Part shown: positions 14,600-26,627 of the stretch, one piece after another | Layout of the letters: each line of letters opens with the position of its first letter | Position numbering within the stretch: the first letter of the stretch is position 1 | Origin: Bacteroidales bacterium | Lineage (GTDB): Bacteria; Bacteroidota; Bacteroidia; Bacteroidales; UBA932 | Assembly (NCBI GenBank): GCA_017519185.1 | Contig: JAFWSX010000006.1 | Location: forward strand, 222,084-286,083 | Direction of reading: 5' to 3' | DNA length: 64,000 nt | Program-made: the position numbers and the translations under genes | The notes under the pieces: generated by a model | What the model saw: the letters and a program-made list of their open reading frames with translations, nothing else | Databases searched by the model: none | What the model was told of the DNA's origin: nothing

Positions 14600-16192
14600 T
14601 TACTTCTTGTGCTGCACTGCGGCGCGCTCGATGGCGAGGCAGGCCTTGTAGTTCTCGATGTAACGGTTGAAGCCTTCTACGTCATCTTCGGTAGGGGCTA
14701 TTTCGACACCGGTGTTGCCTGCAAAGACAAACTTGTCAAGGAAGTCCGGGAGAGACAACCCGCCGGGATTGTTCACCAGGTAAGAGCCGAGGAGAGCGAT
14801 GCCCCAGGCTCCGCCTTCACCTGCAGTCTCCATAACCGAGATGGGAGAGTTGAGGGCTGAGGCGAGGACGCGCTGGCCAACACCCTTGACCTTGAACAGT
14901 CCGCCGTGGCCTGTGATGCGGTCGACCTTGACCTTTTCTTCCTTCAGCAGGACGTCGTTGCCGATCTTGAGCACACCGACGGTGGCGTAAAGGATGGAAC
15001 GCATGAAATTGGACAGATTGAAACTGTCGGTTGCAGAGCGGACGAAGAGAGGACGGCCTTCAGCAAATCCGGTAACGGGCTCGCCGGAGATGTAGTTGTA
15101 TGAAACCAGGCCGCCGCAGTCAACGTCGCCTTTGTCGGCAGCGTCGAACAGGCGCTGGAAGATCTTGCCCATATCGACTTTTACTCCCATAAGTTCCTCA
15201 TACTCTTTGAACAGGCCCACCCAGCCGTTGAGGTCGGAAGTGCAGTTGTTGCAGTGGACCATTGCGACGAGATTGCCGTCGGGGGTGGTGACCATGTCGA
15301 TCATCTCGTTAGGCTTTGACAGTTCCTTCTCCAGTACTATCATAGAGAATGAAGAAGTGCCGGCGGAAACATTGCCGGTGCGAGGTCTGACAGCGTTCGT
15401 AGCAACCATTCCTGTTCCTGCGTCTCCTTCGGGAGGACACAAGGGAACACCGGCCTGCAAGTGTCCGGAAACATCGAGGCGTTTTGCTCCATTCTCTGTC
15501 AGGCGGCCTGCCGGCTCGCCTGCATTGAGAACCTTCGGCAGAATGTCACCAAGCTTCCAGTTGAATTTGTGGGGAGCGACGAGTTTGTCAAACTTCTCGA
15601 TCATGTCCGCCCTGTAGTTTCTGGTCTCGGGGTCGACAGGAATCATTCCTGAAGCATCACCGACGCCAAGAACCTTCTCGCCGGTGAGCTTCCAGTGGAT
15701 GTAGCCGGCAAGGGTTGTCAGATAGCCGATATTCGGAACGTGTTCCTCCTTGTTCAGGATAGCCTGGTACAGGTGGGATATGCTCCAGCGCAGAGGAATG
15801 TTGTAGACGAACAGCTTGGAAAGGGCGGCGGCAGCTTCGCCGGTGTTGGTGTTGCGCCAGGTGCGGAAGGGAACCATAAGGTGCCCGTCTTTGTCAAAGG
15901 GCATATAGCCGTGCATCATCGCGCTGATGCCGATGGCGGCAAGATGCTCAATCTCCACGTCGTAGCGCTTGCGGACGTCAGTGCGCAGATCAGCGTAGCA
16001 GTCCTGCAGGCCAAACCAGATGGTTTCGTTGCTGTAGGTCCAGAGACCGTCCACAAGCTGGTTCTCCCATTCGTGGCTGCCCTGGGCGATAGGGACGTGA
16101 TCCTCGTCGATGAGCACCGCCTTGATGCGGGTGGAGCCGAACTCGATGCCGAGGATGGCTTTTCCTGATTCGATGGTTCTTCTTGCGTCCAT
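14600..16192 (-). CDS. araB: FGGY-family carbohydrate kinase, probable L-ribulokinase
   Basis: Phosphorylates a ketose, most likely L-ribulose to L-ribulose 5-phosphate. 530 residues: N-terminal phosphate motif ILGIEFGSTRIKAVLID, the FGGY core with DASGMIPVDPETRNY, and the C-terminal ATP-site region ITGHGGLFKVKG. It belongs to the ribulokinase type found in Bacteroides arabinose clusters, which diverges from the E. coli enzyme, so substrate identity rests on neighbours: araA ends 1 bp before its start, and the transporter and araD are divergent. A xylulokinase role is possible but less likely. Confidence 0.85.
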   Translation of the reverse strand: MDARRTIESGKAILGIEFGSTRIKAVLIDEDHVPIAQGSHEWENQLVDGLWTYSNETIWFGLQDCYADLRTDVRKRYDVEIEHLAAIGISAMMHGYMPFDKDGHLMVPFRTWRNTNTGEAAAALSKLFVYNIPLRWSISHLYQAILNKEEHVPNIGYLTTLAGYIHWKLTGEKVLGVGDASGMIPVDPETRNYRADMIEKFDKLVAPHKFNWKLGDILPKVLNAGEPAGRLTENGAKRLDVSGHLQAGVPLCPPEGDAGTGMVATNAVRPRTGNVSAGTSSFSMIVLEKELSKPNEMIDMVTTPDGNLVAMVHCNNCTSDLNGWVGLFKEYEELMGVKVDMGKIFQRLFDAADKGDVDCGGLVSYNYISGEPVTGFAEGRPLFVRSATDSFNLSNFMRSILYATVGVLKIGNDVLLKEEKVKVDRITGHGGLFKVKGVGQRVLASALNSPISVMETAGEGGAWGIALLGSYLVNNPGGLSLPDFLDKFVFAGNTGVEIAPTEDDVEGFNRYIENYKACLAIERAAVQHKK

Positions 16193-16193
16193 A

Positions 16194-17732
16194 TTACTTC
16201 AGGGCTTTATTAAGCATAAAGTATACTTCGTTGTTGCGTAGATTCTGCTTGAAGCCGGCGATGTCGGTCTGCTTGTTGATGCGGACATATTCGATGCCGG
16301 TCATTTCGGCGAAGTCATCCCAGTACTCCTCGGTTATGTCGTAAGAGAAGGCACTGTGGTGTGTACCGCCGGCCAGGATCCAGGCGCCTGCGCCGATTTC
16401 GAAAGTAGGCTGGGGAATCCAGAGGGCACTTGCCACGGGCAGGTTGGGCATCGGCTTGGGTTTGATGCACTCTACGGTCTGGGAGATGAGGCGGAAGCGG
16501 TTGCCGAGATCTACGATAGTGGCCTTGATGCCGGGGCCGGTCTTGGATGTGAACACCAGACGGGCGGTGAACTGCTTGCGGATGCCGATGCCGAGGAAAT
16601 GGACTTCGAGTTTCGGTTTGTTCTCGACTGCGATGAGCGGGCAGATTTCGAGCATATGGCTCTGCAGGCAAGATGAACGGTCACCTGCGAAGTTGAGCGT
16701 GTAGTCCTCAAGGAATGAACATCCGGTGGGAAGGCCCTGCTGCATCACCCAAAGGGTGCGTACGAGGCAGGCGGTCTTCCAGTCGCCTTCTGCACCGAAT
16801 CCATAGCCTTCTGCCATCAGACGCTGCGATGCGAGGCCCGGAATCTGGTCGAAACCGCAGAAGTCGGGAGCGTTGATGTCTGCATCTCCGAGGTCATCGA
16901 AGTTGGTGGTGAAGGCAGTGGCGCCTTCGTCCTTCAGCACGCGGCGCAGTGCAATCTCTGCTTTGGCGCTGTTCTTCACCTTCTCCCAGTATACATCTTC
17001 TCCGCTCTCGTCGATCTTGATCTCATAGAGCTTCTTGTACTCCTCCACGAGGGCGTCGGCTTCGGCATCGGTAACCTTCTTGAAATATTCCATCAGGTTG
17101 CTGACAGGGTAGTAGTCTACGTGGTAGCCGAGGCGCTGCTCGAACTCGACACGGTCTCCGTCGGTGACGGCCACGTTGTTCATATTCATACCGAACATCA
17201 GGCAGCGTACATCGTGTGCATCGCGGACGCCTGCTGCTACGCGTGCCCATACTGCAATCTGTTTCTGGGCCTTTTCATCTTTCCAGTATCCGCATACCAC
17301 CTTGCGGGGAATGCGCATACGGGTGCAGATATGACCGAACTCGATGTCGCCGTGGGCGCTCTGGTTGAGGTTCATGAAGTCCATGTCGATCTCGCTCCAG
17401 GGAATCTCGGCGTTGTACTGAGTGTGAAAGTGGAGCAGAGGTTTCTGCAGCTGCTGCAGACCCTTGATCCACATCTTCGCGGGTGAGAAGGTGTGCATCC
17501 AGGTGATAATGCCTATGCACTTGTCATCGTTGTTGGCGGCAAGCATCACGGCCTCGACTTCCTTCGAACTGTTGGCAGTGCCTTTGTAAACGATTTTCAC
17601 GGGGATGTTGCCTGAGGCATTGAGTCCCTCTACCATTTCTTTTGAGTGTCCGTCTACTTGTACAACGGCGTCGCCTCCGTAGAGCAGCTGGGCTCCGGTG
17701 ACGAACCAGACTTCATAATTTTCAAAAAGCAT
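16194..17732 (-). CDS. araA: L-arabinose isomerase
   Basis: Mn-dependent interconversion of L-arabinose and L-ribulose in the cytoplasm. The 512 residues cover the whole family: MLFENYEVWFVTGAQLLYG at the start, the WMHTFSPAKMWI segment, active-site stretches FTTNFDDLGD and EGYGFGAEGDWKTACLVR (catalytic Glu region), SFLEDYTLNF, and GGTHHSAFSYDI with a metal-binding His. It is first in the araA-araB unit; araB starts 1 bp after it. Transcription is probably from the minus-strand half of the palindrome at 17778-17795. Confidence 0.97.
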   Translation of the reverse strand: MLFENYEVWFVTGAQLLYGGDAVVQVDGHSKEMVEGLNASGNIPVKIVYKGTANSSKEVEAVMLAANNDDKCIGIITWMHTFSPAKMWIKGLQQLQKPLLHFHTQYNAEIPWSEIDMDFMNLNQSAHGDIEFGHICTRMRIPRKVVCGYWKDEKAQKQIAVWARVAAGVRDAHDVRCLMFGMNMNNVAVTDGDRVEFEQRLGYHVDYYPVSNLMEYFKKVTDAEADALVEEYKKLYEIKIDESGEDVYWEKVKNSAKAEIALRRVLKDEGATAFTTNFDDLGDADINAPDFCGFDQIPGLASQRLMAEGYGFGAEGDWKTACLVRTLWVMQQGLPTGCSFLEDYTLNFAGDRSSCLQSHMLEICPLIAVENKPKLEVHFLGIGIRKQFTARLVFTSKTGPGIKATIVDLGNRFRLISQTVECIKPKPMPNLPVASALWIPQPTFEIGAGAWILAGGTHHSAFSYDITEEYWDDFAEMTGIEYVRINKQTDIAGFKQNLRNNEVYFMLNKALK

Positions 17733-17832: not shown

Positions 17833-19551
17833 ATGGCTTTACTTGACTGGATAGTGATTGCGATATTCGTCGCAGCTATGGTATGGATTATCATGTCGGT
17901 AGTCCGCAAGAAAAAAGACAATTCATCTGATTACTTCCTGAGCGGCCGCGATGCTACGTGGATCGCCATCGGAGCTTCCATCTTCGCTTCGAACATCGGC
18001 TCGGAGCACCTCATCGGCCTGGCCGGCAGCGGCGCTTCAAGCGGTCTGGCAATGGCCCACTGGGAGATCCAGGGCTGGATGATCCTGATTCTGGCCTGGG
18101 TGTTCGTGCCGTTCTACGAGCGCAGTATGGTCTACACCATGCCTGAGTTCCTCGAGAAACGCTACAACCGCAGCTCAAGGAAGATATTGACTTATATCTC
18201 ACTCATCAGCTACGTGCTCACCAAGGTGGCCGTGACAGTCTATGCCGGCGGTCTCGTGTTCCAGCAGGTGTTCGGCATCGAAAGCATCCGTATCTTCGGA
18301 GCCAACGTCGACTTCTTCTGGGTTGCCGCCATCGGCCTTGTGGTGCTGACAGCTATTTACACTGTTATCGGAGGTATGGAGTCCGTCCTTAAGACATCAG
18401 TGCTCCAGACGCCCATCCTGCTGCTGGGATCCATCGTGATCCTCATCCTCGGCTTCAAGGAGCTCGGCGGCTGGCAGAATATGCTTGACCTCTGCAACGT
18501 CACTCCCGCATATGAAGGTGCACAAGGCTCTATGTCCCACCTTATGAGGCCGCTCAGCGATCCTCAGTATCCCTGGCTCGGCGCCCTTCTTGGTTCGGCA
18601 ATCATCGGCTTCTGGTACTGGTGTACTGACCAGTTCATCGTCCAGAGGGTCCTTTCAGGCCGTGACCAGCGGCAGGCCCGCCGTGGTGCCATCTTCGGAG
18701 CTTATCTCAAGCTGTTGCCCGTGTTCCTCTTCCTCATCCCCGGAATGATCGCCTTTGCACTCGCACGCGGAGCTGCTACCGGAGCTCTCGACAGCGAGCT
18801 CGGCCGCCAGCTTGCACCGGTTCTCACCAACGGTGACGTGGCCTTCCCTCTGCTTGTTGCCAAACTTCTGCCCGCCGGTTTCAAGGGAGTCGTTGTCTGC
18901 GGTATCCTCGCAGCCCTGATGAGTTCTCTTGCTTCACTGTTCAACTCTTCAGCGATGCTTTACACCATCGACGTCTACAAGCCCAAACATCCCGAAGTTT
19001 CTGAGCAGAAACTCGTGAAAGTCGGTCGTATGGCTACAATCATAATCGTAACTCTCGGTATCCTTTGGATTCCCGTGATGAAGAGCATCGGCGACGTGCT
19101 CTATCTTTACCTGCAGGATGTCCAGTCAGTGCTTGCTCCTGGTATCGCAGCTGCATTCCTGATGGGTGTCTGCTGGAAGAAAGCCACTCCCAAGGGTGGC
19201 CAGTGGGCATTGATCACAGGCCTTGTCATCGGTCTCGTCCGTCTTGGCGCCAAGATCATCTACACTACTTCCTGGGGTGCGGGAATGGGCTCTAGCTTGT
19301 TCCGCACGGTATTCTATGATTTCAACTGGCTGTACTTCTGCGCCTGCATGCTGGCTGTCTGCCTGCTTGTCTGCGTCGTCGTCAGCCTTTGCACAAAACC
19401 GAAACCCAAAGAGGAAATCAGAGGTCTCGTGTTCGGTACGGCCACAGAAGAGCAGAAAGCTGTTACACGCCGCAGCTGGAATGGCTGGGATATCTTCCAT
19501 ACCTGCGTAATTCTCGGCATCACCGTAGCATTCTATATCTATTTCTGGTAG
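17833..19551 (+). CDS. sodium/solute symporter (SSS family), probable arabinose importer
   Basis: Inner-membrane Na+-coupled transporter of 572 residues with about 14 hydrophobic helices, similar to SglT-type sugar symporters. Seen: [27 protein letters not shown] near the N-terminus, the [20 protein letters not shown] region, and the [15 protein letters not shown] segment typical of SSS sugar carriers. It is first in the operon with araD (1-bp gap), which makes arabinose the probable substrate; a related pentose or hexose cannot be excluded. The Na+ gradient would come from the NQR pump encoded at 4728-10459. Confidence 0.9.
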
Positions 19552-19552
19552 T

Positions 19553-20245
19553 ATGTTAGAAGCACTCAAACAGGAAGTTCTCGAGGCCAACCTGAGCCTC
19601 GTAACCCACGGACTGGTGATATTTACCTGGGGTAATGTAAGCGCGATTGACCGCGCCAGCGGCCTTGTGGTCATAAAACCCTCAGGAGTCAGCTATGACG
19701 AGATGAAGGCCTCAGATATGGTGGTCGTCGACCTCGACGGCAAGGTTGTCGAAGGTGACCTGCGTCCGTCTTCCGACACCCCGACCCACGTGGCCCTCTA
19801 CAAGGCATTTCCGAAAATAGGAGGAGTGGTCCACACCCATTCCACCTTTGCTACAGCCTGGGCGCAGGCCGGGAAGGCCATACCCAATATCGGTACAACC
19901 CACGCCGATTATTTCCACGATTGCATCCCTTGCACCGACACAATGACCAAAGCCCAGGTGGAAGGTGACTATGAGCTGGAAACCGGCAACGTGATAGTCG
20001 ATCTTTTCAAGAATTATAATTACGAGCATACTCCCGCCGTTCTGGTGCGCAACCACGGGCCTTTTTCCTGGGGCGCAACCGCCGCCAAGGCAGTTGAGAA
20101 TTCAGTGGTGATGGAGCAAGTCGCAAAGATGGCGTTCATTTCATATTCAGTGAATCCGAACCTCACGATGAGCGACCTGCTTATAGAAAAACACTTCAAC
20201 CGCAAGCACGGTCCCGGAGCTTATTATGGACAAAAGAAAAAATAG
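19553..20245 (+). CDS. araD: L-ribulose-5-phosphate 4-epimerase
   Basis: Class II aldolase-fold, Zn-dependent enzyme converting L-ribulose 5-phosphate to D-xylulose 5-phosphate, the last step of arabinose entry into the pentose phosphate pathway. 230 residues. Zinc ligands His94 and His96 ([17 protein letters not shown]) and His168 ([10 protein letters not shown]) are present, with Asp75 where E. coli AraD has its acidic residue. [14 protein letters not shown] is strongly typical. It starts 1 bp after the symporter stop. Confidence 0.96.
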
Positions 20246-20252
20246 AAATAGT

Positions 20253-21398
20253 ATGAAAAAGTCTTTCTTGATGGTAATGGCGGCAGTGTTGGTTCTTGCT
20301 GCAAGCTGTACCGGCAAAAAGGGAGCAGAGTCCCTCAAAGTTGATCCCGCACTGTTCGAAGCTGTAGTAGACGGCAAGGACGTGCATCTGTATACTGCTG
20401 AAAATGCCAACGGCATGGTGGTCCAGTTCACGAACTACGGTGCACGCGTGGTCAGCATCATTGTTCCCGACAAGAACGGCGAGCCCAAGGATGTCATCTG
20501 GGGTTTCGATTCTATCGAAGGCTATCTCACCGGTGATGCATTCTCAGGCCCTGTGGTAGGCCGTTACGGCAACCGTATCGCAAAAGGCCAGTTCACTCTT
20601 GACGGAGTCACCTATCAGGTGGACCAGAACGAAAACGGCAACCATCTGCACGGCGGCAAGAAAGGAATCTATGCCGTTGTATGGGACTGCAAGCAGTACA
20701 AGAACGCCCAGGGTGAACCCGTAGTCGAGATGACCTACAATTCTCCCGACGGCGAGATGGGATATCCCGGCAATATGAAGATTACCGTGGTCTATACCGT
20801 CAAGAACGACAACTCGCTTGCCATCACCCATAAGGCAGTTACCGACAAGGCCTGCCCCGTGAACCTGACGTTCCATCCCTATCTCAACCTTCACGGCACC
20901 AGCGAGGTTAGCTCTAACAGCCACATCCTCTACATCGATGCCGATACCTTCACGGCTACCGACAGGGCTCTCATCCCTACGGGTGAACTGACTCCCGTGG
21001 CAGGAACCGCAATGGATTTCAACACTCCCACTGAAGTGGGCAGCAGGCCTGATATGAGCGTTGAGGCTATCAACATCGCCAACGGCGGATACGACCAGAA
21101 CTATGTTCTCAACCATCCCGGCGATATGAGCAGACCCTGCGCTACGATGTATGAGCCGGCTACCGGAATCTTCCTCGAGATATTCACTGACCAGCCTGCC
21201 ATCCAGTTCTACTCAGGCCCTGCAATGAACGGTACTGACGTGGGCAAGCGCGGTGACGTGCACCACCGCTTCAGCGGCATCGCACTAGAGACCCAGAAGT
21301 TCCCCGACGCTCCCAACCATCCTGAGTTCCCTGATACCATTCTCCGCCCTGGCACGGAATATGTGCATAACGCAGTCTATAAGTTCTCAACCAAATAA
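20253..21398 (+). CDS. galM: aldose 1-epimerase (mutarotase), exported lipoprotein
   Basis: Interconverts alpha and beta anomers of aldoses. 381 residues from the ATG at 20253, chosen because it gives a clean lipoprotein signal (MKKSFLMVMAAVLVLAASC) and clears araD; the ATG at 20226 lies inside araD. Catalytic His is in FHPYLNLHG and catalytic Glu in ALETQKFPDAPNHPEFPDT near the C-terminus, with GRYGNRIAKGQF and NHLHGG upstream. An exported mutarotase beside a sugar symporter suggests it presents the preferred anomer of arabinose for uptake. It follows araD by 7 bp. Confidence 0.93.
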   Translation: MKKSFLMVMAAVLVLAASCTGKKGAESLKVDPALFEAVVDGKDVHLYTAENANGMVVQFTNYGARVVSIIVPDKNGEPKDVIWGFDSIEGYLTGDAFSGPVVGRYGNRIAKGQFTLDGVTYQVDQNENGNHLHGGKKGIYAVVWDCKQYKNAQGEPVVEMTYNSPDGEMGYPGNMKITVVYTVKNDNSLAITHKAVTDKACPVNLTFHPYLNLHGTSEVSSNSHILYIDADTFTATDRALIPTGELTPVAGTAMDFNTPTEVGSRPDMSVEAINIANGGYDQNYVLNHPGDMSRPCATMYEPATGIFLEIFTDQPAIQFYSGPAMNGTDVGKRGDVHHRFSGIALETQKFPDAPNHPEFPDTILRPGTEYVHNAVYKFSTK

Positions 21399-21407
21399 CA
21401 AAACACG

Positions 21408-22073
21408 ATGAAAAAGTTTTTCTGCAGCATTGTAGTCCTTCTTTTAGCCCTGCCTGTTCTGGCCCAGAACGAAGGGGCGGTGCCATTCAACGGAGTCATC
21501 GTAGATGTTGCCGGAAAAGGAATCAAAAACGTTAAAGTCGAGGTCAAGAACACCAGCAAATATACCAAGACTGACAAGCAGGGCCGTTTCGGTTTGACCA
21601 ACATAACTCCCGAAGACACTCTGGTATTCTCCATCAAGAGGATCCGCCACGAAATCGAAGTTGGCGAAGCCAAGAGTCTCAGGATAGTTATGGCTTCAGA
21701 GAACACAGATGAATGGAAAGCTTCGCAGGATGATGAACTGGTGGATTTCGGTTTCATGTATGTTAAGAGACGCGAGTTTACCGGCAGCGCATCCGGCCTG
21801 ACGGAAGAAAACCTCAAAGGTTATACAGACCTTGCCGAGGCCATCAATGCGCTTGTTCCTAATGTTACAGTAAGTTCAGACGGAAGCGTGAGCATCCGTG
21901 GCCAGAGGTCTCTCGTGGCTAGCAACAATGCTATGATACTCCTGAACAACCAGGAAATCGGCTCCGTGCTGGATGTAAGCATCTATGACGTGAAGAGCGT
22001 CGAAATCATCAAAGATGGTGTCGGCTATGGCTCAAGAGGCGCCAACGGCGTGGTTGTGATTCGTACCAAATAA
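21408..22073 (+). CDS. CarboxypepD_reg-like plus TonB-plug protein lacking a barrel
   Basis: A 221-residue exported protein (signal peptide MKKFFCSIVVLLLALPVLAQ). Residues 24-100 form a CarboxypepD_reg-like beta domain (VPFNGVIVDVAGKGIKNVKV). Residues 125-221 form a TonB-dependent-receptor plug: DLAEAINALVPNVTV, SIRGQRSL, ILLNNQEIG, VKSVEIIKDGVGYGSRGANGVVVIRTK. Translation stops exactly where the beta-barrel would begin in a SusC-type receptor, and no barrel remnant follows; the next gene starts 5 bp later. It lies 9 bp after galM. Such stand-alone plug proteins occur in Bacteroidota, but I know of no assigned function. It could be a regulator of a receptor or an independent periplasmic binding protein. 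Confidence 0.8.
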   Translation: MKKFFCSIVVLLLALPVLAQNEGAVPFNGVIVDVAGKGIKNVKVEVKNTSKYTKTDKQGRFGLTNITPEDTLVFSIKRIRHEIEVGEAKSLRIVMASENTDEWKASQDDELVDFGFMYVKRREFTGSASGLTEENLKGYTDLAEAINALVPNVTVSSDGSVSIRGQRSLVASNNAMILLNNQEIGSVLDVSIYDVKSVEIIKDGVGYGSRGANGVVVIRTK

Positions 22074-22078
22074 CATTT

Positions 22079-24352
22079 ATGATAAAGAAACTGTTTCCGG
22101 CATTGCTGCTTTCATTGATGGCAGCATGCTCATCGCCTGAGAAGGTGGACTATGCCGACTACGTTAACCCGCTGGTCGGCACTTTGTCTACTTACTCCCT
22201 TTCCACGGGTAATACCTACCCCGCAATCGCCCTGCCCTGGGGTATGAATTTCTGGACTCCGCAGACCGGCCGCATCGGCAATGGCTGGACATATGTATAT
22301 ACTGAGAACAAGATCCGCGGTTTCAAGGAGACACATCAGCCGAGTCCCTGGATAGGGGACTACGGCCAGTTTGCCATTATGCCTGTGACCGGGGCGCCTC
22401 TGTTCGACCAGGACGCACGCGCCAGCTGGTTCTCCCACCGCAGTGAGACTGCCAGGCCATATTATTACAGTGTATATCTGGCCGACCACGATGTCACCAC
22501 CGAGATAACCCCCACCGAAAGGGCGGCAATGTTCCGTTTCACTTTCCCGGAGACCGACAGTGCCTTCGTGGTTATTGATGCTGTCGAGGGTGGTTCGGGC
22601 ATCCAGATTGTGTCCGACCGCAAGATTGTCGGCTATTCGACTATGAACAGGGGAGGAGTGCCTGCCAATTTCAAGAACCGTTTCGTGATAGAGTTCGACA
22701 AGCCTTTCACCTACAAGGCCACCTTTTCGGATGGCGTACTGTCAGAAGGTGTGATGGCTGCAGAAGCTGCACACGCCGGAGCTGTAATCGGTTTTTCAAC
22801 CCGCAAGGGAGAGGTTGTCCACGCTAAGGTGGCTTCTTCCTTCATAAGTGACGAGCAGGCCATTCAAAATCTCAAGGAGCTTGGCGACAGAAGTTTCGAC
22901 GAAGTTATGTCCGATGGCAAGAGGGTTTGGAACGAGGCCCTCGGACGCATAGAAGTCAGCGGAGAGAATGTCGACAATATGCGCACATTCTATTCCTGCC
23001 TCTATCGTTCGCTGCTGTTCCCCCGCAAGCTCTATGAAATTAATGCAGACGGACAGGTGATGCACTACAGCCCCTACAACGGCGAGGTGTTGCCCGGCTA
23101 TATGTATACCGACACGGGATTCTGGGATACTTTCCGCAGCCTCTTCCCGTTCGTCAACCTGATGTACCCCACCGAGGCCCTGCAGATGCAGGAAGGACTG
23201 ATCAATGTCTATAAGGAAAGCGGTTTCTTTCCCGAGTGGGCTTCACCGGGCCACCGCAGCTGCATGGTCGGCAACAATTCCGCAGCGGTGCTGGCTGACG
23301 CATATATGAAAGGCCTCAAGGTTGCAGAGCCTGACGTGATGTTCGAAGGCCTGCTCCACGGCAGCAATGCCGTCCATCCCAGAGTAAGTTCTACAGGCCG
23401 TCTCGGCTGGCAGTACTACAATGAGCTTGGATATGTCCCCTATGATGTCGGCATCAACGAGAGTGTTGCCCGTACGCTGGAATATGCATATGACGACTGG
23501 TGTATCTACGAGCTGGCAAAGGCTCTCGGAAGGCCGGACGAAGAAGTGCAGCTCTATGCGAAGCGAGCTCTCAACTATAAGAATGTCTTCGACCAGGAAA
23601 GCAGCCTGATGCGCGGACGCAACGCCGACGGCAGTTTCCAGACTCCGTTCTCTCCGCTCAAGTGGGGAGACGCCTTCACTGAAGGCAACAGCTGGCACTA
23701 CACCTGGAGCGTGTTCCACGACCCGCAGGGCCTCATCGACCTTATGGGCGGCCGCGAGAACTTCGTGACGATGCTGGACTCGGTGTTCAACGTTCCGCCT
23801 CTGTTCGACGAGAGCTACTACGGCGGCGTAATCCACGAGATCAGGGAGATGCAGGTGATGAATATGGGCAACTATGCGCACGGCAACCAGCCGGCCCAGC
23901 ATATGATATATCTCTATGACTATGCGGGAGAGCCCTGGAAGGCGCAGCGCTGGGTAAGGGAGACGATGGACAAGCTTTACAGCGCCACTCCCGACGGCTA
24001 TTGCGGCGACGAGGACAACGGCCAGACTTCTGCGTGGTATGTGCTCTCGGCTCTCGGTTTCTACACCGTGGCTCCCGGCACAAACCAATATATAATAGGA
24101 ACCCCGCTGTTCAGGAATGCAGTCCTGCACTTCGAGAACGGCAACGACCTTACCATCGAGGCGCCTGAAAACGGACCGGAGAACTTCTACATCGATGCGA
24201 TGTCCTTCCGTGGCAAGAACTACACGAAGAACTACTTCGACCACTTTGACCTCATCAAGGGCGGAACTGTGAAGGTCAGGATGTCCGACAAGCCGAACTA
24301 CAAACGCGGCACGGCCGAAGAGGATCTGCCGTATTCATTCTCTCGCGAATAG
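22079..24352 (+). CDS. GH92 alpha-mannosidase, lipoprotein
   Basis: Ca2+-dependent inverting exo-alpha-mannosidase that trims mannose from N-glycans or yeast-type mannan. 757 residues with a lipoprotein signal (MIKKLFPALLLSLMAAC). Family marks: DYVNPLVGT at the mature N-terminus, FKETHQPSPWIGDYGQF, FWDTFRSLFPFVNL, HGNQPAQHMIYLYDYAG and GYCGDEDNGQTSAWYVLSALGFY, ending in a C-terminal beta domain. Linkage specificity (1,2, 1,3 or other) cannot be read from sequence. It starts 5 bp after the plug protein, so it belongs to the arabinose operon, an unexpected pairing. It ends 17 bp from a convergent gene. Confidence 0.94.
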   Translation: MIKKLFPALLLSLMAACSSPEKVDYADYVNPLVGTLSTYSLSTGNTYPAIALPWGMNFWTPQTGRIGNGWTYVYTENKIRGFKETHQPSPWIGDYGQFAIMPVTGAPLFDQDARASWFSHRSETARPYYYSVYLADHDVTTEITPTERAAMFRFTFPETDSAFVVIDAVEGGSGIQIVSDRKIVGYSTMNRGGVPANFKNRFVIEFDKPFTYKATFSDGVLSEGVMAAEAAHAGAVIGFSTRKGEVVHAKVASSFISDEQAIQNLKELGDRSFDEVMSDGKRVWNEALGRIEVSGENVDNMRTFYSCLYRSLLFPRKLYEINADGQVMHYSPYNGEVLPGYMYTDTGFWDTFRSLFPFVNLMYPTEALQMQEGLINVYKESGFFPEWASPGHRSCMVGNNSAAVLADAYMKGLKVAEPDVMFEGLLHGSNAVHPRVSSTGRLGWQYYNELGYVPYDVGINESVARTLEYAYDDWCIYELAKALGRPDEEVQLYAKRALNYKNVFDQESSLMRGRNADGSFQTPFSPLKWGDAFTEGNSWHYTWSVFHDPQGLIDLMGGRENFVTMLDSVFNVPPLFDESYYGGVIHEIREMQVMNMGNYAHGNQPAQHMIYLYDYAGEPWKAQRWVRETMDKLYSATPDGYCGDEDNGQTSAWYVLSALGFYTVAPGTNQYIIGTPLFRNAVLHFENGNDLTIEAPENGPENFYIDAMSFRGKNYTKNYFDHFDLIKGGTVKVRMSDKPNYKRGTAEEDLPYSFSRE

Positions 24353-25430: not shown

Positions 25431-25550
25431 TAATATTTTCCGTCTGGACCAAAGTGCATTTTAAACGAATATAAATGTTTAAAAACGGGTAGGGTCCTTT
25501 GCAGGAGCTACATTGCGCTCCGTAACAATCAAAAAATGGAGGACAAAGAA

Positions 25551-26627
25551 ATGAAAAGAATTGCAGCAATCTGTTTGGGGATTGCAATGATTGCCACGGC
25601 ATGCCAAGTGCTGCCTGACGGGGAAGACCAGAAGCTGCGCAAAGGGGGCCTGGTACTGAGGATTGCAGATTTTTATAATGACGCTCCTGCGCTCAAGTCT
25701 GCAGCGCTCCCCGACACCAATTCATTCCTGCTTACCGTCGCCGATCTGTCAGGGGAGGCGTACTATCACGGCCTTTACGGTGAAAGGCCTCAATCCATAT
25801 TGCTAACAGAAGGTACCTACCAAGTGTCGCTCGTTTCTGCAGATTATTCCATTCCTGCCTTCGATTCGCCGAGGTGGGGTGCGGATGTACAGGTTGACAT
25901 AGTTGCTGACGAAACCACAAAGGTATTGCTGGAGTGCTCCCAGGTCAATGCCGGTATCAGGCTCAATTTCGGCAGCCACTACCGCGAGATATTCGGCGCA
26001 AGCCCCATCAGGATCTCCCGGGGCGATAAAAGCCTGCTATATCCCATAGGTGAAGAGAGGTATGCATATTTCCCGCCGGGCGAAGCCCTCTTCGAGATAG
26101 TCACCGGCACGGAAACCAAGCCCATCTTCAAACGGTCGCTCCGGCAGGGCGTGAACCTCACCATCAACCTCGATGCTTCTTCGGACTCAGGCGGGTCGGT
26201 ATTTGAAGTATCGGTTGACACTCAGGCAATATACGAGTCCGAGGACATAGTGACTGACGGCACGTTTTTCCAGGAGGACGGACTGACGATGAAGACAGCT
26301 TTCTGCGTGGATTCCGCAGCGCATCACGTGGGTGATACCGTATGGGTGTGGGGCTATATCGTAGGAGGCGACTGCACTGCCGACAAAGTGAATTTCTTCA
26401 CCGAAGATATCGTTTCCGCTACGCATTTCGCCATAGCTGCGTCGCCGTCTGCTTCCAAAAGGTCGGAATGTATGGCAGTGGAACTGAGCAAGGCTGCGAT
26501 GCGCGCCGAACTCAACCTTGTGGACAACCCCCAGCTCAAATACAGGAAGATTTATCTGAGGGGCAAGGTCGCCAATTATATGGGCTCGTGGCCCGGCATA
26601 AAAAATCTCTCCGAATACAAATATTAG
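25551..26627 (+). CDS. DUF4493-type lipoprotein
   Basis: 358 residues from the ATG at 25551, preceded by a GGAGGA-like ribosome site; it gives the lipoprotein signal MKRIAAICLGIAMIATAC. Residues 30-215 have the beta-rich pattern of DUF4493 (LRKGGLVLRIA..., TVADLSGEAYYHGLY, LLTEGTYQVSLVSAD, fimbrillin-like). After a Ser/Gly linker, residues 245-358 (AFCVDSAAHHVGDTVWVWGY, YRKIYLRGKVANYMG) resemble the OB-fold DUF6359 domain often joined to it. These are surface or periplasmic proteins of unknown function. It stands alone between the tRNA and the COG0523 gene. Confidence 0.7.
   Translation: MKRIAAICLGIAMIATACQVLPDGEDQKLRKGGLVLRIADFYNDAPALKSAALPDTNSFLLTVADLSGEAYYHGLYGERPQSILLTEGTYQVSLVSADYSIPAFDSPRWGADVQVDIVADETTKVLLECSQVNAGIRLNFGSHYREIFGASPIRISRGDKSLLYPIGEERYAYFPPGEALFEIVTGTETKPIFKRSLRQGVNLTINLDASSDSGGSVFEVSVDTQAIYESEDIVTDGTFFQEDGLTMKTAFCVDSAAHHVGDTVWVWGYIVGGDCTADKVNFFTEDIVSATHFAIAASPSASKRSECMAVELSKAAMRAELNLVDNPQLKYRKIYLRGKVANYMGSWPGIKNLSEYKY

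Follow-up and report, generated by a model that had tools for sequence, protein, structure and literature searches.

A family of barrel-less plug proteins related to SusC/RagA receptors, with a member in a predicted arabinose operon of a Bacteroidales bacterium

We have analysed a 221-residue frame in the window, a 64,000-nucleotide stretch of DNA from a Bacteroidales bacterium, whose product carries the N-terminal extension (NTE) and plug domain of a TonB-dependent receptor and ends without a barrel. The features of the locus are collected in Table 1. The plug gene follows the end of the aldose-epimerase gene by 9 bp and precedes the start of the GH92 gene (22079) by 5 bp. Matches to L-arabinose isomerase and L-ribulose-5-phosphate 4-epimerase identify the surrounding operon as an arabinose operon, in agreement with the first-pass annotation of this DNA, while the FGGY-like kinase scores below both the ribulokinase and the xylulokinase cut-offs. 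No SusD gene lies beside the plug gene in the window, its neighbours being the aldose epimerase and GH92. A promoter scan returned 12 sites compared with 5.5 expected, none of them informative, and one Bacteroidota-type promoter pattern was matched twice in the window, neither time upstream of the operon. Signal peptides and lipoboxes were called by eye.

Table 1. Genes of the locus and parts of the plug protein, in coordinates of the window.
Feature	Coordinates	Strand	Basis
FGGY-like sugar kinase, divergent	14600..16192	-	profile match
L-arabinose isomerase AraA, divergent	16194..17732	-	profile match, 754 bits vs cut-off 622
Sodium:solute symporter, first gene of rightward run	17833..19551	+	profile match
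L-ribulose-5-phosphate 4-epimerase AraD	19553..20245	+	above NF006047 cut-off, below TIGR00760 cut-off
Aldose 1-epimerase (GalM-like), lipobox by eye, directly upstream of plug	20226..21398	+	profile match
Barrel-less NTE-plug protein, 221 aa	21408..22073	+	translation, Pfam, NCBIfam, orthologues
Signal peptide, residues 1-20, 'VLAQ' end, without lipobox	21408..21467	+	by eye
NTE / CarboxypepD_reg-like beta domain, residues 26-94	21483..21689	+	Pfam, AF2 strands, Foldseek
Ton-box-derived segment, residues 107-123 (QDDELVDFGFMYVKRRE), polar box core	21726..21776	+	alignment, AF2
Plug domain, residues 128-221	21789..22070	+	Pfam, AF2, Foldseek RagA/SusC
Plug loop shortened to 3 residues, from KD to YGSRGANG	22017..22025	+	alignment
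GH92 glycoside hydrolase, lipobox by eye, directly downstream of plug	22079..24352	+	profile match

Several observations concern the genes around the plug. An exported-looking protein with DUF4493 and DUF6359 (25536-26627) adjoins a gene that was assigned by eye to a CobW-like GTPase, and is kept in several related loci. The kinase is 74.5% identical to its counterpart in genome G134 and 92% in G157, compared with 98% for the adjoining AraA (G134), and from these identities the arabinose locus appears to be a mosaic. AraD of genomes G066 and G124 differs from that of the window with a dN of 0.13-0.14, while symporter, epimerase and GH92 of the same genomes show a dN of 0.02-0.06, which suggests replacement of AraD.

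Translation, Pfam and NCBIfam agree on the architecture that had been read from the sequence at first pass. The frame runs from ATG to TAA, its product ends in GSRGANGVVVIRTK, and it is composed, in order, of a signal peptide, a CarboxypepD-type NTE, a Ton-box-like segment and a complete plug, the stop codon (22071-22073) falling directly after the last plug strand, where a SusC barrel would begin. Pfam Plug is matched above cut-off at residues 121-215 (E 6.4e-08) and CarbopepD_reg_2 at residues 28-97 with a score slightly below cut-off (E 4.1e-07, 30.4 bits, cut-off 32.2), and the NCBIfam SusC/RagA model TIGR04056 is matched over only its positions 4-204 of 981, scoring 84 bits where the cut-off is 368. 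The Pfam and NCBIfam scans returned no dedicated model for a barrel-less plug protein. A reading of the window revealed no barrel-coding sequence 3' of the stop, and GH92 begins within a few bases of it, so that the gene is, as first proposed, not a simple frameshift of a longer receptor. Pfam detected no M56 protease domain in the protein and no STN domain at E up to 1, which rejects an STN-type signalling receptor, and a phage origin of the gene was rejected as no PHROGs match was obtained.

An AF2 model run on seven close sequences, and of fair confidence only (mean pLDDT 66.5, pTM 0.44), consists of a beta domain at residues 26-94 and a plug-like domain at residues 128-221, connected by a stretch at 97-127 without structure (pLDDT under 50). 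In Foldseek the whole model is nearest to RagA and SusC and its front part to isolated SusC NTE domains (9hfj). The NTE opens with the family motif V-P-F-N-G, in which F27, N28 and G29 are found in 25/25 members of the family described below. As the signal peptide is plain and without lipobox, the protein is strongly inferred to be free and soluble in the periplasm. It is very probably not a transporter, since without a barrel it would carry out no transport by itself.

Orthologues of equal length and 65-100% identity are present in 9 of the 26 genomes of the genus examined, and L-arabinose isomerase was found in exactly these nine plug carriers among the 26. An aldose epimerase orthologue lies upstream of the plug gene in all nine, and GH92 lies downstream in eight; in the ninth, G150, no GH92 was seen in the 426 bp remaining on the contig after the plug gene. 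The stop position is the same in 10/10 orthologous sequences read from the nine genomes, one of which is cut by a contig edge and misses its first 20 residues, and the stop is therefore neither chance nor a sequencing error, the latter an explanation which the first-pass annotation had kept in view. Purifying selection is indicated by dN/dS ratios of 0.035-0.114 in 26 of the 45 orthologue pairs, dS being saturated in the remaining 19. In a gene-by-gene comparison of five genomes, dN/dS was 0.035-0.080 for the plug (9/10 pairs, dS being saturated in the tenth), 0.032-0.069 for GH92 (10/10 pairs), 0.010-0.048 for the symporter and 0.010-0.043 for the epimerase. By these ratios the plug is constrained about like GH92 and less than the symporter and the epimerase. 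When the plug gene was divided into four parts, the signal peptide had the highest dN/dS in all but one of the 9 pairs for which the whole gene gave a value.

The DNA of the plug allele itself (21200-22100) is 79-83% identical to that of G134 and G157, while G134 and G157 are 89-91% identical to each other; between the genome of the window (G000) and G134, identity is 90-95% over the preceding 900 bases and 82-91% in the stretch that follows the allele. At the level of DNA identity this looks like allele exchange. Two different plug alleles are present on two contigs (L046, L048) of G154, which may be a mixed assembly.

Barrel-less homologues occur beyond the genus. In 393 genomes of the order, a seven-row profile (A1) gave a barrel-less match in at least 7, the genome of the window included (E up to 1e-22), the other A1 matches listed in that draw being frames of 547-1196 residues. 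At least one further carrier, G421, was obtained with a wider profile (A2) and confirmed by reading its locus, in which Pfam Plug is above cut-off; another short frame in the A2 table (G459) is ended by a contig edge. With A2, barrel-less homologues were found in 7/15 genomes of a genus termed g135 and in 8/11 genomes of another, g186 (8/20 in the family of g186), with a length of ∼227-236 aa where this was read. Similar-length homologues, for which a search had been recommended at first pass, are thus found in three genera, and the nearest of them match the window protein in length, not the full-length receptors which the first-pass annotation would have taken as the sign of a recent truncation. 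In a draw of 395 genomes of the phylum, the genome of the window was the only one matched at E up to 1e-50 among the candidates scored; the order and phylum draws may have passed over rare members because only 7 candidates were scored in most genomes. In a draw of 149 genomes of its own family, the short frames listed from other genera (280-486 residues) have coordinates that place them at the ends of contigs. A plasmid search returned 101 records, all of less than 60% identity, and nine of the 10 matches listed are annotated as TonB-dependent receptors, the other being without a gene. The assembled protein family comprises 25 sequences from one genus in each of three taxonomic families, referred to here as members, together with the diverged sequences of G266 and G421 from two further families, and its spread among the genomes searched is patchy. 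No earlier description of a barrel-less plug family was found in the open-access library searched.

The two diverged genes have surroundings of their own. The plug gene of G266 (L064 / L076:932-1633) is preceded by a SusC/SusD pair and a lipoprotein, and its product, which forms a long branch in the tree, has the same short loop. That of G421 (L206:2216-3043) is directly followed by a gene for a 629-residue protein with a weak match to a type IX secretion tail.

Barrel-less and full-length plugs are separated in a tree. From 138 matching frames, removal of 50 duplicates and 2 frames at contig edges left 26 barrel-less and 60 full-length plugs, the latter being the best matches to the query rather than a random sample and each continuing for 495 residues or more beyond the plug. 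A single branch splits the 26 from the 60 with support of 97/94, in a tree whose bootstrap had not settled (0.985), and the split is retained with support of 97/97 when G421, added later, is included as the 27th barrel-less row. The long branches of G266 (L064) and G421 (L206) meet in the tree, with weak support for their placement (71/16). Since the full-length rows are the best matches to the query and these two sequences are long branches, a single origin is favoured by the tree for the 25 members and is not extended to all 27.

The split is accompanied by differences at the plug end and in the Ton box. The loop from K-D to Y-G contains 3 residues in 27/27 barrel-less plugs compared with 6 in 60/60 full-length plugs, one short and two full rows, which the pattern had missed, being read by eye. 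The three-residue rule had already been stated when G421 was read, and G421 conforms. The Ton-box core is D, S or N in the 26/26 barrel-less sequences which are readable, that of G266 (L064) being unreadable and left out, and V, A or F in 60/60 full-length plugs; it is D at residue 113 of the window protein and N in G421. The box of Bt1763, given as DEVVVTG in the portion of the study drawn on here (PMC7782687), is the canonical SusC box. Position 108, before the core, is D in 24/25 members compared with L, I or M in 60/60 full-length plugs, and G115, V119, R122 and E123 are invariant in 25/25 members. Segment 107-123 nevertheless keeps the E-L-V-x-x-G-Y pattern of a Ton box. Between the three main lineages the Ton-box segment is conserved at 0.54, the NTE at 0.44 and the plug at 0.40, and as the segment is equally conserved in full-length receptors (0.59), part of this signal may be inherited.

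Domain content, purifying selection, placement on one tree branch and a fixed position in the arabinose operon of the genus combine to indicate a maintained gene. The best explanation is that a receptor of SusC/RagA type lost its barrel long ago and that the remaining gene has been kept since. We consider it almost certain that the family is real and non-truncated.

As to function, we tentatively favour, at somewhat less than an even chance, a dedicated periplasmic adaptor that would act by protein-protein contact. Such an adaptor would be made together with sugar-use genes, and its flexible segment 107-123, carrying the re-tuned Ton box, and its NTE would serve as docking surfaces. A contact site would most plausibly lie in this segment because it is conserved, unstructured and altered, as would fit a binding peptide whose specificity has changed. 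A possible partner, if a rather unlikely one, is the TonB/ExbD machinery or a TonB paralogue; a glycosidase encoded downstream is a less likely partner again, and both the mouth of an outer-membrane barrel, contacted in trans, and a sugar or other small ligand must be regarded as doubtful. Alternatively, the plug could be a folded remnant and the NTE could do the work.

The gene contexts bear on whether the protein is an accessory to the glycosidase encoded downstream, an explanation we regard as unlikely although a same-direction glycosidase does follow the plug gene repeatedly: GH92 in eight of the nine carriers of the genus, GH88 in 5/7 genomes of g135 and, in 2/7 g135 genomes, GH43 after one small protein gene (Bflower_2 in the one tested). 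However, no glycosidase was recognised beside the plug at any of 8 g186 loci, where neighbours were judged from their printed first residues, most of them by eye, and four by Pfam (TerC, NAD epimerase, FeS-assembly protein and GtrA-like protein), and neither of the two neighbours tested in G421 is a known glycosidase. GH92, GH88 and GH43 are, moreover, unrelated families, so that a surface bound in common is not obvious. Comparison of the g186 and G421 neighbours with those of the window's genus and g135 suggests that a sugar context is frequent and not obligatory, and because the g186 plug genes lie among unrelated genes no single pathway covers all contexts.

A simple decoy or tuner of TonB, in which the free Ton box would bind TonB and lower its supply to the receptors when the arabinose genes are on, is doubtful. 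The segment does retain a conserved Ton-box pattern, and growth of Bt1763 on levan requires its Ton box, according to the part of the report used here (PMC7782687). Against ordinary binding stand the two substitutions described above, at the core, which is polar (D/S/N) in 25/25 members and V/A/F in 60/60 full-length plugs, and at position 108, where the hydrophobic residue of 60/60 full-length plugs is replaced by D in 24/25 members. Competition for TonB in the ordinary sense, which had been suggested at first pass, is therefore weakened.

More improbable still is a detached plug for a barrel encoded elsewhere, or a BamP-like peptide which enters a barrel from below. In the closed state, SusC plugs are reported to move out of the barrel in vitro (PMC7782687, in the part considered here), and there is a precedent in BamP, which has an N-terminal domain and a linker that enters the BamA barrel from the periplasm according to the sections of its description used here (PMC12611786). 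The genome of the window yielded 14 TonB-dependent receptors, however, of which 13 have a recognised plug, and the fourteenth, Oar-like, has ∼115-125 residues between NTE and barrel, room enough for one, which makes a partner barrel less likely; as the barrel model recovered only 3 of the 6 SusC genes of the genome, a lone SusC-type barrel could be missed by this search. Pairing with a separate barrel of the same genome, another suggestion of the first-pass annotation, is thus weakened rather than removed. A detached plug is also at odds with the loss of three residues beside the YGSRGANG motif, and a BamP-like peptide with the C-terminal domain of BamP, which in the same sections (PMC12611786) is described as three helices and not a plug. 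In its most specific form, which we hold to be very improbable, the protein would be a trans-acting plug and the Bacteroidales counterpart of BamP, its re-tuned Ton-box peptide entering BamA, or a SusC barrel vacated by its plug, at the periplasmic mouth and gating it when the sugar-use genes are switched on.

A recent truncation or decaying receptor fragment, to which the presence of the domains of the first quarter of SusC might point, is rejected as next to impossible in view of the equal-length orthologues, the low dN/dS and the position on a branch of their own.

Plug domains are taught as corks which are meaningful only inside their barrel. A barrel-less plug family under selection on one branch would imply that the unit of NTE, Ton box and plug can act alone, and in one genus each sampled genome with a detected arabinose isomerase carries the plug as well. 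The family also supplies a natural barrel-less construct, predicted to be small and soluble, for testing the role of the NTE. In the portion of the Bt1763 study drawn on here, growth on levan was not detected within 24 h once the NTE had been removed (PMC7782687).

Three known systems invite comparison with the adaptor proposed here. SusC/RagA receptors (TIGR04056; RagA, Bt1763, Bt3090) provide the best sequence and fold matches and share the succession of NTE, Ton-box position and plug. The plug protein differs from them in having no 22-strand barrel and no adjacent SusD gene, in its shortened plug loop, and in the polar rather than hydrophobic core of its Ton box. A second likeness is to M56-family proteins, which end in a plug-like motif without barrel at 3 of the 30 M56 loci examined; unlike the window protein, these ends are attached to a membrane protease. 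One of the three loci lies in the window's own genome (G000:C16, L181), where an M56-type protein ends in the motif LKDTSSREKYGDNASNGVIIIELK, without barrel. All four M56 plug-like motifs seen have the six-residue loop, and the short loop, rejected as a general mark of barrel-less plugs, is consequently a mark of this plug family. BamP of the Flavobacterium johnsoniae BAM complex (NF053692), as presented in the sections of its description used here (PMC12611786), is likewise periplasmic and composed of an N-terminal domain, a long conserved linker and a C-terminal domain, and residues 1-79 of the window protein match the NCBIfam BamP model weakly (E 0.0026). Membership in BamP was rejected, as the C-terminal domain is a plug fold here and the match amounts to 17 bits against a cut-off of 230. 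In the same sections, one of two possibilities put forward by the authors is that other Bacteroidota have analogues which have gone unrecognised (PMC12611786). By sequence, then, the parts of the plug protein are known ones in an apparently unusual assembly, an NTE, Ton box and plug of SusC/RagA kind without the barrel.
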